NCBI GenBank assembly: GCA_030431525.1
Contig: JAUIJC010000042.1
Coordinates: 1 to 34,853 of the forward strand
Direction: 5' to 3'
Source of the DNA: Bacteroidia bacterium
GTDB lineage: Bacteria; Bacteroidota; Bacteroidia; Cytophagales; JAAEPT01
Length of the DNA stretch: 34,853 nucleotides
This document shows, in pieces, positions 1,205-34,575 of the stretch. Position numbers and translations under genes: made by a program. Under the pieces are notes generated by a model. The model was not told the DNA's origin, searched no databases, and saw only the letters and a program-made list of their open reading frames with translations. How positions within the stretch are numbered: the stretch's first letter is position 1; each line of letters starts with the position of its first letter.

Positions 1205-1573
1205 TTATGCCGTGAGGCGCTGAACCTCTTCCACCAGTTTGTGGAAATCAATCGGTTTTGGAAGATAACCGTTAAACCCTTTGGCCTTGAACTCCTCGTC
1301 GCTCATGTTCAAAGCGTTGCCAGTGATGGCCACCACGGGTACTTGTGCTTTTTCCGACTCCAAGGCGCGGATGGATTGAATGCAGTCCAAACCATTCATT
1401 TTTGGCATTTGGATGTCCATCAAAATCAAATCAATGGCCTCAGCCTCCAATTTGCTCAATACAGACTTGCCGTCTTTGACCCCAATCACTTCAAATTTCC
1501 CCGATTGATTCAATACACGACTCACCAAATTCAAAAGTGCCGAGCTGTCCTCGGCCACCAATATCTTTTTCAT
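1205..1573 (-). CDS. Single-domain response regulator (CheY-like)
   Basis: A 122-residue receiver domain with no output domain. All receiver landmarks are visible: the acidic pair Glu8/Asp9, the phospho-acceptor Asp53 in LILMDIQMP, Thr84 in AITGNA and Lys106 in YLPKP. The LMDIQMPKMNGLDCIQ stretch resembles receivers of hybrid kinases more than classical CheY, and the receiver of the large hybrid kinase at 4116-7388 carries a very similar LMDIQMPEMDGI segment. By family it accepts phosphate from a histidine kinase or HPt domain and signals through protein contacts. It is transcribed alone, leftward, with a candidate promoter near 1669. Partner assignment to the nearby kinase is inference only. 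Confidence 0.93.
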   Translation of the reverse strand: MKKILVAEDSSALLNLVSRVLNQSGKFEVIGVKDGKSVLSKLEAEAIDLILMDIQMPKMNGLDCIQSIRALESEKAQVPVVAITGNALNMSDEEFKAKGFNGYLPKPIDFHKLVEEVQRLTA

Positions 1574-1668
1574 AGCTGTTTCTGGTAAAAAACTTTTGGC
1601 TCCCGACAGGCAAGCAATTTATATGCCGAGCCCGACGAAGAGTGTCCCCCCTGTCCCATTTTTCATTG

Positions 1669-1676
1669 CAAAATTA
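1669..1676 (-). promoter_or_regulatory. Candidate -7 element for response regulator
   Basis: On the - strand this reads TAATTTTG, matching the Bacteroidota TAnnTTTG -7 word, about 95 bp before the response regulator start. I see no clear TTTG -33 element at the expected distance, so this is tentative. Confidence 0.35.
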
Positions 1677-1764
1677 CAATCAATGGTCGTGATGGAGAAG
1701 CCACCTGCCTTAACTTTTTATGAAATAGGGATTTCCTTTTCCTTACTGAGATTACTTCGGCTGT

Positions 1765-1878
1765 CACCTGCCAACAGCCGGAGGCTTTGGCAGTGTGATT
1801 TTCTCCGCAGAGATGGCTTTCATACCACACTGCCAAAGCTTTTAGCTGTTGGCAGGTGGTATGAAAGCCATCTCTGCG
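1765..1878. repeat. Complex nested inverted repeat with alternative folds
   Basis: Two 34-nt units face each other at 1806-1839 and 1845-1878, separated by 5 nt. They share GTATGAAAGCCATCTCTGCG exactly and differ slightly in their GCTxTTGGCAG part. A further arm pair to the left (1765-1778 and 1784-1797) repeats the GCT-TTGGCAG part in both orientations. As a result 1765-1778 can pair with 1845-1858, 1784-1797 with 1826-1839, and 1806-1827 with 1857-1878. These pairings cross, giving either a pseudoknot or two exclusive folds. The stretch 1574-1898 holds this element and no gene I can support. Confidence 0.8.
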
Positions 1879-1898
1879 CGCCTACACATTACAAACAG

Positions 1899-2633
1899 CT
1901 AAAAATTAAAACTCCCCCCAACCTGCGCATAATGAATAAAGGAGAAGTTGTAGATTTCATCATTATCAGCGCCTCCCTCCAAAAAACGATAGGCTACCCG
2001 AACGCTCCATTCCTTTCGCCAGTAGTAATCCAAGGCAAACTGATAATCAAAGGCCCTTCCTTGGCTGGCAGTCAGGCCATCACCCTCGGCCAAAAAGCTC
2101 ACTTTTTCGGAGGCATGCCAACGGACATAAAGGTTAATCAATGGAACAAAGCCAACATTGGAGAATCGAGCCCGTTTTCCAATGGTTTCCTGTTCGACAA
2201 GCACAAAGGCATCACGAATTTTTCCCGTCAATCCAGCGCCAATTCGCCAGCGGTCATTGGCCACGAAATCATAGCGATAAGTCAATCGGTAGGAGTTAAA
2301 ACGGTATTCCAAATTGGTCGCCAGAATGGGGTCGAACACCTGTCCATCAAAGCTGATAGGTGTATCAAATGAACCTTCGTACTTCAATTTTAGGGGAGCT
2401 ATTAAGGCAAATACATTGTGTCGGTTCTTGAAACGATAGCCTCCTCGCAGTCGAATATCAAAGCGTGGTTCCGTCCCCAATTCATCGAGGACATTAAAGC
2501 GCGTGCCTGATGTGCCTGACACCTGAATCACATTGCGCCCCGTAAAGGCCAAGCCAAACTCCCAGTCGGCCAACACCTGCCCCATCACTGCCGAGCCCAT
2601 CAAATAGAAACATATCGCTAATAAATACTTCAT
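1899..2633 (-). CDS. Outer-membrane beta-barrel family protein
   Basis: A 244-residue protein with an N-terminal signal peptide (MKYLLAICFYLMGSAVMGQ, cleavage probably after the Gly-Gln region). The remainder alternates polar and hydrophobic residues in many short strands such as YRFNSYRLTYRYDF, and ends in Phe (SFNF), as outer-membrane barrels inserted by the BAM machinery usually do. The length suggests about 10 to 12 strands, similar to DUF2490-type or small porin-like barrels, but I do not recognise the exact family. Substrate and role are unknown. It is transcribed leftward from the region shared with the rightward gene at 2776; its 3' side runs straight into the complex inverted repeat. 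Confidence 0.8.
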   Translation of the reverse strand: MKYLLAICFYLMGSAVMGQVLADWEFGLAFTGRNVIQVSGTSGTRFNVLDELGTEPRFDIRLRGGYRFKNRHNVFALIAPLKLKYEGSFDTPISFDGQVFDPILATNLEYRFNSYRLTYRYDFVANDRWRIGAGLTGKIRDAFVLVEQETIGKRARFSNVGFVPLINLYVRWHASEKVSFLAEGDGLTASQGRAFDYQFALDYYWRKEWSVRVAYRFLEGGADNDEIYNFSFIHYAQVGGSFNF

Positions 2634-25012: not shown

Positions 25013-25492
25013 ATGGATTATCATTTATCAAAAATAGGAAGCGAGCTTGCCCAAATTTTAGACACAGAAGATTATGGCTGGCTTTCGGAAAATGAATTTG
25101 TGCTTTTTGAAAGGGTCAAAGACTATATCATCTGTATTTATAAGGATTTCCCCATCGTCAACCTTCCCACTGCCAAGCGAATTGCAGCTGCCAGAAAAGA
25201 GGCCATGGCCAAAATGGGGCAAGAAAAGGTCTTCATTTTTGTGGATATGACCACTGTGAAAAAATCGACTCCCGAAGCGCGAGATTTCTACGACCTTCCA
25301 GAAGAAACAGCGGGAATCCACTCAGTGGCCCTTTATACTGAATCACTTTTGGCTTTTGTGGTAGGTTCATTCTATTTCAAAATGTCCAAGTTCAAAGGCT
25401 TATCCCAGCAGGTCTTTATGAATAAGAAAAAGGCCTTGGATTGGCTGGAAAAAAGTAAGCTGAAACAAGACGCGCTAAGAATCGCTTCCTAA
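25013..25492 (+). CDS. STAS/SpoIIAA-like domain protein
   Basis: A 159-residue protein resembling the SpoIIAA/STAS-like fold seen in Cytophagales genomes (DUF7793-like). Beta-alpha units are visible: FERVKDYIICIYKDFPIVNLPTAKRIAAARKEAMAKMG, KVFIFVDMTTVKKSTPEARDFYDL, then SVALYTESLLAFVVGSFYFKMS. The TAxx-FIFVDMTTVKKSTPEAR arrangement recalls the anti-sigma antagonist phosphorylation loop, but I cannot identify a phosphorylatable Ser with confidence. Function unknown; a regulatory or lipid-contact role is possible. It converges with the TerD cluster, with a terminator between. Confidence 0.7.
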   Translation: MDYHLSKIGSELAQILDTEDYGWLSENEFVLFERVKDYIICIYKDFPIVNLPTAKRIAAARKEAMAKMGQEKVFIFVDMTTVKKSTPEARDFYDLPEETAGIHSVALYTESLLAFVVGSFYFKMSKFKGLSQQVFMNKKKALDWLEKSKLKQDALRIAS

Positions 25493-25520: not shown

Positions 25521-25554
25521 AAACCCCCAATGCTGTCTCGAACATCGGGGGTTT
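25521..25554. terminator. Bidirectional terminator between STAS gene and ter cluster
   Basis: AAACCCCC pairs with GGGGGTTT and the stem extends through AATG/CATC with one mismatch; T-rich sequence follows on both sides. It ends the rightward STAS-like gene and the leftward ter cluster. Confidence 0.8.
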
Positions 25555-25573: not shown

Positions 25574-26185
25574 TTAAAAGTTTGTCTTGATATAGTCAAT
25601 GGTTTCCTTGATATCATTTGCTGGAACGGGATCACCGATGGCCTCGAACTTCCAATCGCCGTTTTCACGGATAAGGCGTCCCATAATCATGGAAATAAAG
25701 CCTTTGTATGAAGCGTCAGCGGAAAGGTTAAAGTTCGCCAACACATCCTCCACACGGTTTGGTGTGCCCTCAAAGATGCGAATCTTTGAATAAGGGATAT
25801 TGGCAAAATCCACCTTGTTGTAAGAGTTCAAATAGAAGTAAACCTCATCAACTTGAGCAGGCATCTTGTCAAGATTGACGCGAATTACTTCGTTATCAAG
25901 TCCGTCATCACCACCCTCATCTCCTGTTAGGTCGTCACCGCTGTGGATAACTGCACCTGTCTTGGAGCGAAGTTTATTGTAATAAACAGTTTCCAAGGCG
26001 TTTTTGGAGCCGTCAAAAAGGGTGACACTACCGTCGAGGTCCACAGACTTGTTTTGGCCCATGAAAAGGGCTGAAATTCCTGAACGCTTGATGGCTCCCC
26101 AGTTGAGTCCCACACAAACGCTCGACAACTTCTTACCAGCTTTCTCCAACTTAATGGAGCTACCTTTTTTAAGATTAATTGCCAT
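25574..26185 (-). CDS. TerD family protein, TerZ-like (fifth of cluster)
   Basis: A 203-residue TerD-domain protein of the longer TerZ-like subtype. Calcium-binding acidic stretches are at residues 49-53 (DLDGS) and 81-99 (HSGDDLTGDEGGDDGLDNE). The N-terminus MAINLKKGSSIKLEKAGKKL is the family start. TerD proteins bind calcium and are linked to tellurite, phage and envelope stress resistance; the mechanism is unresolved. It is the last gene of the leftward cluster, starting 5 bp after the stop of the preceding terD gene, so the two are surely cotranscribed. Its closest relative here is the protein at 27429-28067. Confidence 0.93.
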   Translation of the reverse strand: MAINLKKGSSIKLEKAGKKLSSVCVGLNWGAIKRSGISALFMGQNKSVDLDGSVTLFDGSKNALETVYYNKLRSKTGAVIHSGDDLTGDEGGDDGLDNEVIRVNLDKMPAQVDEVYFYLNSYNKVDFANIPYSKIRIFEGTPNRVEDVLANFNLSADASYKGFISMIMGRLIRENGDWKFEAIGDPVPANDIKETIDYIKTNF

Positions 26186-26190
26186 ACCGA

Positions 26191-26751
26191 TTAACCATAA
26201 ACGTTTACGTAGCCCTCCAAACCTTTGGTAGAACCGATTCCCAAAGCTTCAAATTCCCATTCGCCGTTATTGCGCTTGAACTTGCCGAACTCCATATCCG
26301 TGCTCAATGGTGCGTCAGCGTCCAAGTCATAGCGAAGGATTTCGCGCTGGTTTTCTACGTCCACCACGCGGATGTAAGCGTCCTCCAACAAACCGAAATT
26401 GTGATTGCGACCTGCTGCATCATGGATAGAAGCCACAACGAGTACTTCCTGTACGGCGTTGTCTAAAGATTCCATGTTGAAGAGGACCATTTCATCGTCA
26501 CCTTCTCCAGCACCAGAACGGTTGTCGCCAGTGTGCTCTACAGAGCCGTCTGGTGACTTGAGGTTGTTATAAAAAATGAAGTGGCTGTCGCTAACAAGCT
26601 TGCCGTTTTGGTTGAGCAAAAACACGGAAGCGTCCAAGTCAAGCTGGTTGCCTTCCTTAAACTCCCAACCCAAACCAATCATTACTTTTTTCAAGCCTGG
26701 CTCCTTTTTGGTGAGGTTGAAGCGTCCTCCTTTTTGAAGATTGATAGCCAT
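26191..26751 (-). CDS. terD: TerD family protein (fourth of cluster)
   Basis: A 186-residue TerD protein of the short subtype. It opens MAINLQKGGRFNLTKKEPGL and has calcium-site segments DLDAS (38-42) and EHTGDNRSGAGEGDDE (72-87), then the GHNFG-like RNHNFGLLEDAYIRVVDV. All predicted ligands are kept. It is highly similar to the proteins at 26803 and 28156, evidence of tandem duplication. The 51-bp gap upstream carries a palindromic repeat (26768-26793) that splits the operon spacing. Confidence 0.94.
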   Translation of the reverse strand: MAINLQKGGRFNLTKKEPGLKKVMIGLGWEFKEGNQLDLDASVFLLNQNGKLVSDSHFIFYNNLKSPDGSVEHTGDNRSGAGEGDDEMVLFNMESLDNAVQEVLVVASIHDAAGRNHNFGLLEDAYIRVVDVENQREILRYDLDADAPLSTDMEFGKFKRNNGEWEFEALGIGSTKGLEGYVNVYG

Positions 26752-26802: not shown

Positions 26803-27363
26803 TCAGGCGTAAACATTCACATAGCCCTGAAGCCCTTTGGAGGTTCCGACCCCAACAGCTTCAAAAATCCATTCGCCATCCACCTTTTTAAAGCGACCAA
26901 ACTCAGCCTCGGTGCTCAATGGATTTTCTTGGTCAAGATTGAAGCGAAGGATTTCCCTTTGGTTATCCACATTGACCACGCGGATAAAGGCCTCGCTGAG
27001 CAATCCAAAATTGTGACCCAACACATCCGCATCATGGATGGAAACAAGGATTACAATTTCTTCAACTTCTTGGTTAATGGTTTCAAGGTTGAATAGAATC
27101 ATCTCGTCATCACCTTCCCCCACCCCTGTGCGGTTATCGCCCGTGTGTTCCACAGCACCGTCTGGTGACTTTAGGTTGTTGTAGAAAACGAAGTATTCAT
27201 CGGCGATGAGCTTGCCGTTTTTACCCAGCAAAAAGGCTGATGCGTCCAAGTCGATGGAAGCCCCTTGTTTGAACTCCCAGCCCAAACCAATCATCACCTT
27301 TTTCAATCCAGGCTCCTTTTTGGTCAAGTTGAGCCTTCCCCCTTTTGAAAGATTAATTGCCAT
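26803..27363 (-). CDS. terD: TerD family protein (third of cluster)
   Basis: A 186-residue TerD protein. Start MAINLSKGGRLNLTKKEPGL; acidic calcium sites DLDAS (38-42) and EHTGDNRTGVGEGDDE (72-87); VSIHDADVLGHNFGLLSEAFIRVVNV in the second half. It belongs to the short subtype with the proteins at 26191 and 28156. It is separated by 65 bp from the TerZ-like gene upstream. Expected to be a soluble or membrane-peripheral calcium-binding stress protein; no specific activity can be assigned. Confidence 0.94.
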   Translation of the reverse strand: MAINLSKGGRLNLTKKEPGLKKVMIGLGWEFKQGASIDLDASAFLLGKNGKLIADEYFVFYNNLKSPDGAVEHTGDNRTGVGEGDDEMILFNLETINQEVEEIVILVSIHDADVLGHNFGLLSEAFIRVVNVDNQREILRFNLDQENPLSTEAEFGRFKKVDGEWIFEAVGVGTSKGLQGYVNVYA

Positions 27364-27428: not shown

Positions 27429-28067
27429 TTAAAAATAATTCTTGATGTATTGAATAGTTTCCTTGATGTCCTTGGCTGGAACAGGCTTACCAATCGCCTC
27501 AAACTTCCACCCACCATCAGCGCGATAAAGGCGACCCATCACCATGGACACGAAACCTTTGTAATCGGGATCAGACGAGAGGTTCATTGTTGCCAACACG
27601 TCATCCACCCGCTTCGGGGTTCCCTCATACACCCTGATGTGCGAATATGGCACATCCGCAAAATCCACTTGGTTATAGGAGTTCAAGTAAAAGAACACCT
27701 CTTTCACTTCGGAATCAATGCGGTCAGTGTTCACGCGGATAATCTCGTTGTCGAGGCCATCATCGCCGTACTCATCACCCACCAAGTCATCACCGCTGTG
27801 GATGATAGCGCCAGAGGTGCTTCGCAACTTATTGTAGTAGACTGTTTCCAAATGACGCTTTCCCTCGCCAAAGAGGCTCACAGAGGCGTCCAAATCCACA
27901 GCCTTATTCCTCCCAAAGATCAATGCGGTAATCCCAGTGCGCGAAATAGCGCCCCAGTTTACCCCAATGCAGACATTGGAGAGATTTTTACCGTCCTTTT
28001 CTAATTTGATGGAGTTTCCCTTTTTCAGGTCAATTCCTCCTCCACTTTTCGATATCGATATCGCCAT
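27429..28067 (-). CDS. TerD family protein, TerZ-like (second of cluster)
   Basis: A 212-residue TerZ-like protein. Compared with its paralogue at 25574 it has an insertion at the N-terminus (MAISISKSGGGIDLKKGNSI). Calcium-site segments are DLDAS (58-62) and HSGDDLVGDEYGDDGLDNE, followed by VFFYLNSYNQVDFADVPYSHIRVYEGTP, which matches the paralogue closely. The alternation short-TerZ-short-short-TerZ in the cluster suggests that a block was duplicated. It is separated by 88 bp from the first terD gene. Confidence 0.93.
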   Translation of the reverse strand: MAISISKSGGGIDLKKGNSIKLEKDGKNLSNVCIGVNWGAISRTGITALIFGRNKAVDLDASVSLFGEGKRHLETVYYNKLRSTSGAIIHSGDDLVGDEYGDDGLDNEIIRVNTDRIDSEVKEVFFYLNSYNQVDFADVPYSHIRVYEGTPKRVDDVLATMNLSSDPDYKGFVSMVMGRLYRADGGWKFEAIGKPVPAKDIKETIQYIKNYF

Positions 28068-28155: not shown

Positions 28156-28716
28156 TTAGGCATAAACGTCAATAAAGCCTTGAAGCCCTTTGTTGCCACC
28201 AACACCGATTGCCTCAAACACCCATTCGCCATCTTCCTTGCGGAGCTTACCAAATTCCATTTCGGTGTTCAATGGGTTCTCGGCATCAAGGTCATAGCGC
28301 AAGATTTCACGCTGAGTCTCCACATCAACAATGCGGATATAGGCATCATCAAGCAAACCAAAATTATGGTTTCTGGACTGTGCATCATGGATACTGGCCA
28401 CAACCACTACCTCATCGATGCTTGGGTTGACTGTCTCCATGTTGAAGAGAATCATCTCGTCATCGCCCTCACCAATGCCTGTGCGGTTATCCCCAGTGTG
28501 CTCCACAGAGCCATCTGGCGAACGAAGGTTGTTGTAAAACACAAAGTACTCGTCGGCAACCAATTTCTTATTGCTTCCCAACAAAAATGCGGAAGCGTCC
28601 AAATCGAGGTGGTTCCCCTCCTTAAATTCCCAACCAAGGCCAATCATTACCTTTTTCAGCCCTGGCTCCTTTTTCGTAAGGTTAAATTTTCCTCCTTTTG
28701 ATAGATTGATACTCAT
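28156..28716 (-). CDS. terD: TerD family protein (first of cluster)
   Basis: A 186-residue TerD protein, start chosen at the ATG at 28716 because it gives the family opening MSINLSKGGKFNLTKKEPGL and exactly the length of the two short paralogues; an in-frame ATG at 28773 adds 19 unlike residues. Calcium-site segments DLDAS and EHTGDNRTGIGEGDDE are intact. It follows the PspA-like gene after 100 bp, which is long enough for an internal promoter although I see no good one. It is probably cotranscribed with the rest. Confidence 0.94.
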   Translation of the reverse strand: MSINLSKGGKFNLTKKEPGLKKVMIGLGWEFKEGNHLDLDASAFLLGSNKKLVADEYFVFYNNLRSPDGSVEHTGDNRTGIGEGDDEMILFNMETVNPSIDEVVVVASIHDAQSRNHNFGLLDDAYIRIVDVETQREILRYDLDAENPLNTEMEFGKLRKEDGEWVFEAIGVGGNKGLQGFIDVYA

Positions 28717-28816
28717 ATACTTAAATGATCGTGTACTCAAAAAACTTCTATTCAAGTCCCTACAAGGTATCATATTGTCCTAAAAACTCATAATACCCTA
28801 ACGAATTCAGGACAAC

Positions 28817-29872
28817 TTAATCCTTGCCAAAAAACTGGTCAAGCTTATTCTTCTTATCGTCGTTATCCTCCTTTTTTTTATCGAAAAAGCCTTTAATGCG
28901 CTTTTCATTCTCTTTTTTCAACGCCTCCTCCTCTGGAGTACTTTTAGGCTTTTCCTCCTCCTTGGGAGATGACTGGTTTCCAAAGAATTTAGATAACTTA
29001 TCCTGACTCGGAGCTTGTGGTGCACTGGATTGGTCAGCAAAGAAATCCTGAAGCTTGTCCTTTTCCAGCGCAGGTGTTCCTTTTTGCTCTTGTAATTGAG
29101 CCAACAATTCCGCTTTGCGCTTGTTCTGCTCCACATTCGCCTGCGGAGCATTCGTGGACTTCATGCCTTTGAAAATGGCGTCCATCTTCTTAGCCTGCGC
29201 CGCTTCATTGGCCTTTCGCACTTCTTCCTTCTCTCGCTCGATGGCTTGGTTCAGCTTTTCGATGGGATCCTCCTCCACTGGACTCTCAAAAGAAGAAACT
29301 GGCCCCAAGTCATTTCCACTGATTTGCGCCAAGGCCTCTGCCCGAGCCTCAGAATCCGCCACTTGGTCCTCATACTCAGAAAACTCTGAAGAATTCTCCA
29401 AGTCCATAAAGGCTTGTGCCACATCCGCCTTACTGGAAGCATTTTCCAATTTGGCCTTCAGCAAAACCTTCTTGGCTTGAGCCTCCTCCAAACGGACACG
29501 CATCATGGCCACTTGCTCCTGCATTTGACGCAGGGAAGCCTTTACCTTTCGGTGAACTTCCTGATAGTTGGCCACTTGGCGATCCATGATCTCCTTTTCC
29601 TCCAACACGTCGGCCGCCTCATCCCTCCGATTCATGTTGGCCAGCTTTTTGGCTCTACTAAAGAGCTTGTCAGAACTATCCTTGAGACCCGTAATTTTGT
29701 GACGAAGGTCTGATTCTGTCTTCTTAGACTCCTGCAGAGAACTCTCGCCAGCCAAAATGGAGCGTTCAATTTCCTGAATCGCCAAATCCAGTGCTTGGTC
29801 TGCCGATCCTTCTCCTGAGCTCTCCTCACGGTCGAGCCTCTCAAACAACCACTTATTGAGTTTTGATAACAT
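28817..29872 (-). CDS. PspA/IM30-like coiled-coil protein with repeated FF-motif tail
   Basis: A 351-residue protein. Residues about 1-185 resemble the PspA/IM30 family: an amphipathic N-terminus (MLSKLNKWLFERLD) followed by long heptad-rich helices (for example MDRQVANYQEVHRKVKASLR, then MQEQVAMMRVRLEEAQAKKV). PspA proteins form ESCRT-III-like polymers on damaged membranes. Residues 186-351 are an added low-complexity charged tail that repeats a short motif four times: KLQDFF (273-278), KLSKFF (292-297), RIKGFF (325-330) and KLDQFF (343-348). The N-terminal helix KLNKWLF is loosely similar. It is the first gene of the leftward cluster with five TerD proteins, which suggests a joint membrane stress role; the tail motifs may bind TerD proteins or membrane, which is inference. 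Confidence 0.85.
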   Translation of the reverse strand: MLSKLNKWLFERLDREESSGEGSADQALDLAIQEIERSILAGESSLQESKKTESDLRHKITGLKDSSDKLFSRAKKLANMNRRDEAADVLEEKEIMDRQVANYQEVHRKVKASLRQMQEQVAMMRVRLEEAQAKKVLLKAKLENASSKADVAQAFMDLENSSEFSEYEDQVADSEARAEALAQISGNDLGPVSSFESPVEEDPIEKLNQAIEREKEEVRKANEAAQAKKMDAIFKGMKSTNAPQANVEQNKRKAELLAQLQEQKGTPALEKDKLQDFFADQSSAPQAPSQDKLSKFFGNQSSPKEEEKPKSTPEEEALKKENEKRIKGFFDKKKEDNDDKKNKLDQFFGKD

Positions 29873-33033: not shown

Positions 33034-34575
33034 TTATTTCAACACAACCATCTTGAAATCCAACGGATCAAACGCCTCAAAAAGGGTATCAATGAAGCCC
33101 TCGTCATTCAAATAAAAATTGAGGAAGTTATCCACTCGCTCCTGAAGCCCGCCATTTGGGAAGAGGCGACTCTTCAGATTTAGCAACTGCCCTACTTCTG
33201 TTTCCTGTTTCTTTTCCTCGGCCTTTTTCAATCGGCGCTCGATGTTTTTGAGCTGAGCAAAAGCCTTTTTCTGCTCACCTTTCAGGTAGCCCTCCATGGA
33301 GCCATCCACCAATTTCACTTTTTCCAGAATCGCTTCGAATACCTCTTCCAAGGCTTTATTTTCATCATCCAAGCCCAAGTCATACTCGGAGTGTTTATCA
33401 ACAAACTGCTTTTTCAACATTTCCTCATCCAAAAACAGGTCCTCAACGGAAAGCTCAAGCTTGTCCATTTTTTTTGCCTGAGGCTTTGGAATCACAAGGG
33501 CAAAATTCCGTGGAACCAAGGCAGGAAAATCGACCTTGAAGTGGTCAAAAACATCCTTGAGTTGTAACCAATAAACGATTTCGGCTGGCCCTCCAACGTA
33601 AGCCAGATTCGGGAGAATCTTCTGTTGATAGACAGGACGCAACACCACATTCGGGCTGAAAGCTTCTGGAGAGGCTTCCAGTTTGGTTAACAACTGCTCT
33701 TTGGAAAATGATGGTCCATTATTTAGCACACCAAAGGTTTCACCTTCTCGAACAATTCGTCCGCGCAGACCGTCTTCCATGTAAAAGAGGTTGATTGGAC
33801 GTGGATGAATCTGTGGTTTATAGCCCAGCTTTTCCAGCTTTGAAGAAGCATCAAGCACCAATTTCTCCGAAGAACCCGACATCATTTCCTCTTCCATAAT
33901 GGAAGCGAAATTCGCCTTCAATGCCCTATCATCAGCATCCAGAATCACCAAACCATGGTCTCCAAAAAGTGTATTGACAAAACATCGAGTAGCCTCCGCC
34001 AATGTTCTCCCTCTTAAATAGGCATCTTCAAAGAGCTTGATTTCTTCGGGTAAACGCTCAAAGATTTCCTCGAAATTCTCGGTAAAAAATCGGCCTACAG
34101 CCCCAGTCTGCAAGGTGTTCCACTCGTACTTTTTGTTGAACAATCGGAAATGATTGATCTCCTCGTAATCATGATCTTCGGAGGCCATCCAATACACAGG
34201 GACAATCTTTTTTCCTGTACTGGCCTCCAGTTCCTTGGCCAATTTGATGACCGTAACCAGCTTGTAAATGAAAAACAGGGGCCCGCCAAAGATGTTGAGC
34301 TGGTGCCCCGTAGTTACTGTAAAAGTGTTTTCAGAACGTAGTGCTTCAAGATTATCCTTGACCGCATCATACATGCCCACGCCCAAATACTGCTCTTCCA
34401 AGGTGTTCACCAAGGTTTCCCTATCCACCGAAGAATAGTTTTCCATTACTTTGGCCATGCCCTCCAAAGTCGGTCGCTCCCCATAAAAGGGACGCAAATC
34501 AGAGGCATTGTTCACATAATCGAGGAAGGCGGTGGAAAACGCATTGGTTTTCTCAAGAGGCAGTGACGCTTTCAT
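33034..34575 (-). CDS. bshC: Bacillithiol biosynthesis cysteine-adding enzyme
   Basis: A 513-residue BshC. It adds cysteine to glucosaminyl-malate in the final step of bacillithiol synthesis, giving the low-molecular-weight thiol used instead of glutathione. Recognised by FTVTTGHQLNIFGGPLFFIYK near residues 90-110, VPVYWMASEDHDYEEI, NVVLRPVYQQKILPNLAYVGGPAEIVYWLQL and the C-terminal coiled-coil with KKAFAQLKNIERRLKKAEEKK. Length fits the family. bshA and bshB are not in the window. It heads a two-gene leftward unit with the cyclo-ligase; the ATG at 34575 is preceded by a repeat-rich region. Confidence 0.95.
   Translation of the reverse strand: MKASLPLEKTNAFSTAFLDYVNNASDLRPFYGERPTLEGMAKVMENYSSVDRETLVNTLEEQYLGVGMYDAVKDNLEALRSENTFTVTTGHQLNIFGGPLFFIYKLVTVIKLAKELEASTGKKIVPVYWMASEDHDYEEINHFRLFNKKYEWNTLQTGAVGRFFTENFEEIFERLPEEIKLFEDAYLRGRTLAEATRCFVNTLFGDHGLVILDADDRALKANFASIMEEEMMSGSSEKLVLDASSKLEKLGYKPQIHPRPINLFYMEDGLRGRIVREGETFGVLNNGPSFSKEQLLTKLEASPEAFSPNVVLRPVYQQKILPNLAYVGGPAEIVYWLQLKDVFDHFKVDFPALVPRNFALVIPKPQAKKMDKLELSVEDLFLDEEMLKKQFVDKHSEYDLGLDDENKALEEVFEAILEKVKLVDGSMEGYLKGEQKKAFAQLKNIERRLKKAEEKKQETEVGQLLNLKSRLFPNGGLQERVDNFLNFYLNDEGFIDTLFEAFDPLDFKMVVLK

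Follow-up and report, generated by a model that had tools for sequence, protein, structure and literature searches.

PspA and Vipp1 (IM30) are members of the ESCRT-III superfamily that bind membranes via helix α0, according to the accessible part of PMC8281802, where the MIM motifs of ESCRT-III proteins are also described as associating with Vps4. Beyond the classical Psp operon, little is known about the effectors of PspA. The function and partners of TerD proteins represent a long-standing gap, and no working mechanism has been settled for the family; the accessible part of a jumbo-phage survey suggests that TerD may sense a ligand in Ter systems (PMC7824862). The main text of two surveys of PspA systems (PMC11237479 and PMC9239133), in its accessible part, mentions neither TerD nor any word beginning with tellur-. 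In the Jug gut phages, a 2025 preprint reports terD adjoining a pspA-like gene (PMC12363816). This is the same pair of neighbouring gene families as in the operon described below, and the accessible part of the preprint makes no mention of a tail. The initial annotation of this operon had taken a multivalent tail linking PspA and TerD to be undescribed, which holds within open-licence papers as far as their accessible text goes; the gene pair itself is already reported for the Jug phages.

The operon considered here encodes a PspA-like protein with a long tail of repeated FF motifs. It belongs to an FF-tailed PspA/IM30 subfamily that is conserved and was found here almost only in Cytophagales. 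This well-defined PspA variant tied to TerD is new, and its tail is probably a docking arm that joins two stress systems, the link between which is poorly understood.

The PspA-TerD operon of the window

The window, i.e., the whole stretch of 34,853 nucleotides that was analysed, originates from a 4.24 Mb draft genome. Its operon of one PspA gene and five TerD genes lies between genes for an S41 peptidase and a DUF7793 protein, and comprises the following features:

28817..29872, minus strand: PspA/IM30-family gene with multivalent FF tail, ORF of 351 amino acids
29039..29056, minus strand: tail motif 1, KLQDFF, residues 273-278
28982..28999, minus strand: tail motif 2, KLSKFF, residues 292-297
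28883..28900, minus strand: tail motif 3, RIKGFF, residues 325-330
28829..28846, minus strand: tail motif 4, KLDQFF, C-terminal, residues 343-348
28156..28716, minus strand: TerD 1, classic type (IGLGW), start MSINL set by homology, listed ORF start at 28773
27429..28067, minus strand: TerD 2, second type (GVNWGAI), by Pfam and signature
26803..27363, minus strand: TerD 3, classic type, by Pfam and signature
26191..26751, minus strand: TerD 4, classic type, by Pfam and signature
25574..26185, minus strand: TerD 5, second type (GLNWGAI), by Pfam and signature
25521..25554, minus strand: terminator-like hairpin of 14 pairs followed by a T-rich stretch, directly behind the fifth TerD gene, from a consensus scan only

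The initial annotation had placed a PspA-like gene at 28817-29872 with five TerD genes downstream. Its coordinates and family assignment stand, and the minus strand is added here, the plus strand carrying several stops across this interval in a reading-frame check. The next five minus-strand genes all encode TerD (PF02342), with E values of 1.6e-31 to 1.6e-67 and 109.6 to 227 bits for a gathering score of 25.3. Counted from the PspA gene, their types are classic, second, classic, classic and second. The consensus scan also places the end of a promoter-like site 24 bp upstream of the PspA gene, in a region with four such sites against 5.6 expected, i.e., no excess over chance, and with seven terminator-like sites against 4.8 expected. 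The DUF7793 protein gene lies at 25013-25492 on the plus strand, convergent with the TerD operon, and a gene assigned by Pfam to BshC (bacillithiol biosynthesis) is found at 33034-34575 on the minus strand, about 3 kb beyond the PspA gene.

The coil of the window protein relates it to PspA and Vipp1, since residues 26-185 match PF04012 (PspA_IM30) with an E value of 7.8e-10 and 39.2 bits, above the gathering score of 33.9. An AlphaFold2 model of the protein alone contains helices at residues 2-17, 23-79, 83-159, 164-186 and 203-238, and residues 23-159 form a long hairpin that matches E. coli PspA (4whe, Z 13.3, rank 1) and Vipp1 (7o3w, Z 12.6), with unrelated coiled coils within 1 Z. In contrast to classical PspA, the protein stays at 19.5 bits where the TIGR02977 equivalog cut-off is 242.95; it also has the long FF-motif tail and TerD neighbours, and no pspB, pspC or pspF was seen in the window operon. 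As a C-terminal segment reaching for partners, the tail may resemble the Vipp1 C-terminal tail or the MIM of ESCRT-III in its working, as far as the accessible descriptions go, but it differs from both in sequence and its motif is repeated up to ten times in relatives. The window operon contains no AAA ATPase gene.

All four motifs that the initial annotation had read in the tail were located, the last one at the C-terminus, where three residues remain after KLDQFF. When the last 113 amino acids were shuffled 200,000 times, four copies of [KR][LIVMF]xxFF were never reached, and two copies were reached 10 times. The four copies of this form with K or R first are confirmed, but across relatives K/R is only a tendency, and the core of the motif is [LIVMF]-x-x-F-F. 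The hydrophobic spacing is that of the PIP-box type motif QxxLxxFF, in which one aliphatic residue is followed by FF at +3 and +4. The flanks are different and bacteria are not known to have PCNA; the likeness is an analogy only.

On the TerD side, the operon resembles ter systems in that its three classic TerDs keep the GDN..G.G.DDE motif, but, unlike in ter operons, no TerB, TerC or vWA gene is present in the operon or its two neighbours. The classic TerDs of the window carry M88 and L90, while the solved TerDs 3ibz and 2kxt have Q or S at position 88 and K at position 90.

Association of the tail with TerD

The order search yielded 99 places, of which the window and 80 others were read, while 18 weak ones (E above 1e-15) stay outside the counts; with 20 loci from the phylum search, the set comprises 100 loci around PspA-like genes in addition to the window. 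Under the rule that a tail is [LIVMF]xxFF after residue 180 of the protein, 48 of the 101 proteins are tailed. TerD linkage was scored in loci reaching up to about 8 kb on either side of the PspA gene. The initial annotation had named orthologues in TerD context without FF motifs as the case that would speak against it; in fact, the tail is present in 34 of the 35 PspA genes with TerD in the locus, and the 35th (L138) has two in-frame stops and still encodes KMDDFF further on in the same frame. By comparison, TerD is found in the locus of none of 52 canonical PspAs. These are the 53 proteins scored tail-less minus L138 and L171, both tailed fragments that the length rule places among the tail-less in the count of 48 in 101, plus L170, a canonical PspA with a chance internal motif that counts as tailed among the 48 and as tail-less in the tree. 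A further 62 PspA ORFs, most of them from the top 80 loci among the matches listed, include six tailed ones (four in Cytophagales records, one Cytophagaceae and one Bacteroidetes) and 56 tail-less ones, at least two of which (L269 and L270) duplicate earlier entries.

Few genomes of the order (73 of 390) encode TerD, which is present in all 46 genomes counted with a tail versus 27 of the 344 others (Fisher 4e-41), and in all 30 tailed genera versus 12 of 99 others (Fisher 5.5e-20), both tests being uncorrected for ancestry. The 46 include G110, which belongs to the 18 weak places and proved tailed on reading (L426). Twelve of the 27 other TerD genomes are tailed as well, namely nine of genus g32 together with G128 (L171), G081 (L138) and G016, all of them outside the 46. 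No tail was seen in 15 of the 73 TerD genomes of the order (G001, G018, G031, G047, G053, G067, G074, G084, G092, G120, G133, G156, G191, G583 and G723), with the TerD loci read for seven of the 15. A codon-pattern search for further tails, with much noise (in many genomes, the counts were similar for its reversed-pattern control), pointed to the tail gene of G117 and to a second one in G162; no tail gene was present in the 20 loci around its matches in G001, G018, G047 and G133.

At 13 loci, no TerD lies in reach of the tailed gene, and TerD is encoded elsewhere in all 13 of these genomes, although L094 and L169 have a contig end within 2 kb downstream and may not be truly unlinked. Mapped on the PspA tree, the unlinked label requires 10 changes, of which at least six are forced and one is owed to the chance row L170. 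Inheritance of the operon alone is an unlikely account of the linkage, the tail gene having left TerD several times without TerD loss. Because unlinked tailed genomes keep TerD, and because genus g32 keeps the motif beside TerD (see below), shared ancestry is less of a worry in this association. It is the tail that tracks TerD, and not PspA as such. In most typed linked loci, the tail gene comes first and is followed by a classic TerD, several TerDs being untypable by signature; L239 is an exception, with a second-type TerD after the tail gene. Near TerD, C-terminal motif matches occur 17 times in 1103 ORFs. Eight are tail genes (seven of genus g32 and one a piece of the L111 PspA), and the remaining nine compare with 13 in 999 ORFs of loci scored without TerD, among which L115 does have TerD.

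Since TerD co-occurs with the tail in the genome even where the two genes are unlinked, it is the leading candidate for the partner of the tail. The initial annotation had made the same proposal, of which the co-occurrence is established and the binding is what we infer. The evolutionary half of the link between tail and TerD is strong, and it seems fairly likely that the multivalent tail docks TerD directly, which would link a PspA-like membrane scaffold to TerD.

The motifs could instead recruit a third protein encoded outside the operon, in a MIM/Vps4-like manner, or form a C-terminal tag for a chaperone or protease. One copy indeed lies at most seven residues from the end in 46 of the 48 tails, which is tag-like, and the MIM motifs described for ESCRT-III in the accessible part of PMC8281802 offer a parallel for a third partner. 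However, no neighbour common to the 13 unlinked loci was recognised by eye, except for the flanks shared by L106, L119 and L120, which belong to one genus, and an unlinked third partner would have to follow the distribution of TerD. Up to ten copies would also be unusual for a degradation tag, and recruitment of a third protein or tagging is considered distinctly unlikely.

Constraint on the motif and origin of the tail

The 48 tails contain 128 motifs, whereas 1000 shuffles give 4.9 ± 2.1 (at most 12), and 128 of their 134 FF dipeptides lie inside a motif. A chance or low-complexity origin of the motifs is ruled out by these shuffles and by those of the window tail. That the FF motif is a general PspA feature is likewise ruled out, the canonical PspAs examined having no tail. 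A tail holds 1 to 10 copies, with charged linkers of variable sequence between them; the ten copies encoded at 1273-2541 (minus strand) of L014 result partly from internal duplication, with KLEDFF and NIDSFF units repeated, and the same gene is found in L105. The tail consensus is K-x-K-x-[I/L]-D-D-F-F-[K/N], with a core that is usually I/L-D-D-F-F; K stands four residues before the hydrophobic position in 67 of the 128 motifs, and the two core positions preceding FF are D in 57 and 62 of them.

This composition bears on the possibility that the FF motifs are membrane anchors, i.e., lysine-flanked amphipathic helices that would insert F-F in the lipid and provide avidity for the PspA coat, with TerD co-occurring merely through the same stress response. 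The flanking lysines and the i, i+3, i+4 spacing suit an amphipathic helix, and PspA and Vipp1 do bind membranes via helix α0 (PMC8281802, accessible part), but the acidic core positions would be unfavourable on an anionic membrane. Furthermore, canonical PspAs of the same order lack the motif, which tracks TerD and is retained on a coil unmatched by any Pfam PspA model, so that membrane anchoring seems rather unlikely.

Comparisons within nine groups of close relatives give identity of the FF pair in 237 of 248 cases (96%), of the coil in 6045 of 7200 (84%) and of the linkers in 3404 of 5395 (63%). The FF pair is therefore kept while the linkers vary, which is the pattern that the initial annotation had proposed to look for in an alignment of orthologues.

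In the coil tree, 47 tailed PspAs fall on one side of a branch with support 99/99.9, and 52 others (51 tail-less proteins and the chance row L170) on the opposite side. A single origin of the tail is therefore likely. The window protein, with four [LIVMF]xxFF motifs of which one is C-terminal, lies on the tailed side of this supported branch and belongs to the FF-tailed subfamily; its row is a long branch, which makes its placement less sure. Several end branches of tailed coils measure 1 to 2.4, and the tailed coils evolved fast after the origin of the tail.

Identity between the window protein and the nearest PspA-like proteins of the order is about 25%. G016 is the only other genome of the window's family in the comparison, and its coil gene, beside a TerD pair, is interrupted by ten N; the open frame behind these ends with NIIDDFFKD just before the first TerD. 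The C-terminal motif is thus also present in this genome, which is of the same family and has the same gene context. In genus g32, the protein encoded beside TerD has a C-terminal FF motif plus one to four more, and its coil matched no Pfam PspA model in the five proteins tested out of five. The L239 protein of this genus still matches the custom coil profile, and the g32 protein is probably a far-diverged PspA. The g32 loci are L225, L228, L231, L234, L235, L238, L239, L241, L421 and L422, with proteins of about 230-270 amino acids, and G162 has two such tail-TerD operons, L239 and L421.

Genus g32 is also informative for the idea that the motifs bind the PspA-like coil itself, either to cross-link the polymer or for autoinhibition, with TerD linked genetically only. 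The tail is fused to the coil, and C-terminal segments of ESCRT-III proteins are known to fold back. Against this, the coil evolves fast and goes unmatched by Pfam PspA models in g32, yet the motif stays, and self-binding gives no reason for the strict co-occurrence with TerD; we regard it as very unlikely.

Over the whole phylum, the coil profile finds a match in 36 of 395 genomes, window included. Outside the order, the scan covered 36 other places, seven as long loci and 29 as short ones (13 of them also as long ones), and only G457 and G465, which belong to one genus, are tailed, both with TerD. TerD is present in 13 of 296 phylum genomes, and no tail protein was found in the 24 short phylum TerD loci L347-L370, which include that of the window itself (L369). 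Searches of plasmids, and of phages and IMG/VR (the latter in three scans), these two with limited sensitivity, found no tailed PspA; most of the searches used the fast-evolving coil and would miss distant relatives.

A putative docking patch on TerD

Direct docking of the tail on TerD could proceed as follows. The PspA coil would assemble at the stressed membrane, each FF motif forming a short helix with I/L and both F on one face, which would dock on the beta-sandwich of a classic TerD. The docking patch would perhaps lie around TerD positions 24, 88, 110, 132 and 136, near the GDNxTGxGxxDDE calcium motif. A polymer would thereby present many tails and concentrate TerD at the membrane, perhaps controlled by calcium. 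In the classic TerDs, the acidic GDNxTGxGxxDDE stretch is conserved and position 88 comes directly after its DDE, from which the idea of a calcium switch derives. A more specific proposal, in which K-x-[I/L]-D-D-F-F is a dedicated TerD-docking motif whose many copies gather a calcium-switchable TerD coat at the stressed envelope, is plausible but tentative, and we would put it at somewhat below even chances. If true, it would provide a defined receptor for TerD and a new kind of effector for PspA. Both partners can be named here from sequence evidence alone, as can a short motif and the residues that are candidates for the contact.

The candidate contact residues come from a comparison of 82 classic TerDs of tailed genomes (57 from tailed-gene loci and 25 from genomes in which the genes lie apart) with 21 TerDs from tail-less genomes or loci. 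K22 is present in all 82. All of them also have M, L, F, I or Y at position 24, M, I, V or L at position 88 and L or M at position 90; among the 21 others, these three positions are hydrophobic in 62%, 43% and 76%, respectively, the contrast at position 90 being weak. In the TerD tree (102 rows, midpoint root, the TerD-like row L345, gene 12, lying outside it), eight partner-less rows are nested among the TerDs of tailed genomes. H110 occurs in 79 of the 82 versus two of these eight, M88 in 68 versus one and R136 in 67 versus one, but E17, outside the proposed patch, drops equally strongly (65 of 82 versus none of eight). The contrast is thus exploratory, and relaxation or shared ancestry could explain part or all of it, relaxation being possible in view of the long branches of the partner-less TerDs. 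Three single TerDs, those of L222, L237 and L227, fall within the clade of tailed-genome TerDs and come from genomes in which no tail was seen; those of L222 and L237 both adjoin a gene of one type, with the protein start MxPLFDQKTFTRETYLYWYE.

A structural check of tail and TerD had been proposed with the initial annotation, and the one model built gave it no support. In this model, the tail of the relative L266 was joined to its in-frame TerD by stop read-through. The TerD is folded (3ibz, Z 19.3, rmsd 2.8 over 162 residues; 2kxt, Z 14.7) and a helix at residues 25-37 covers the motif, with a mean pLDDT of 62 in one of its two blocks and 49 in the other; for both F (35 and 36), the value is under 50, and no tail-TerD contacts are readable. 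In the model of the window PspA, the tail, here without TerD, is predicted with mixed confidence and helices over three of its four motifs. Because the window tail alone also forms helices, the modelled helix over the motif is intrinsic and hence no evidence of docking. Altogether, the predicted structures neither support nor exclude docking of the tail on TerD. Among known structures, the TerD model is matched best by 9a6r_B, from a crosslinking-based model named GLPD-SCP2 (the names of this complex were absent from PMC10090944 in one look-up), a TerD-like protein with a named partner.
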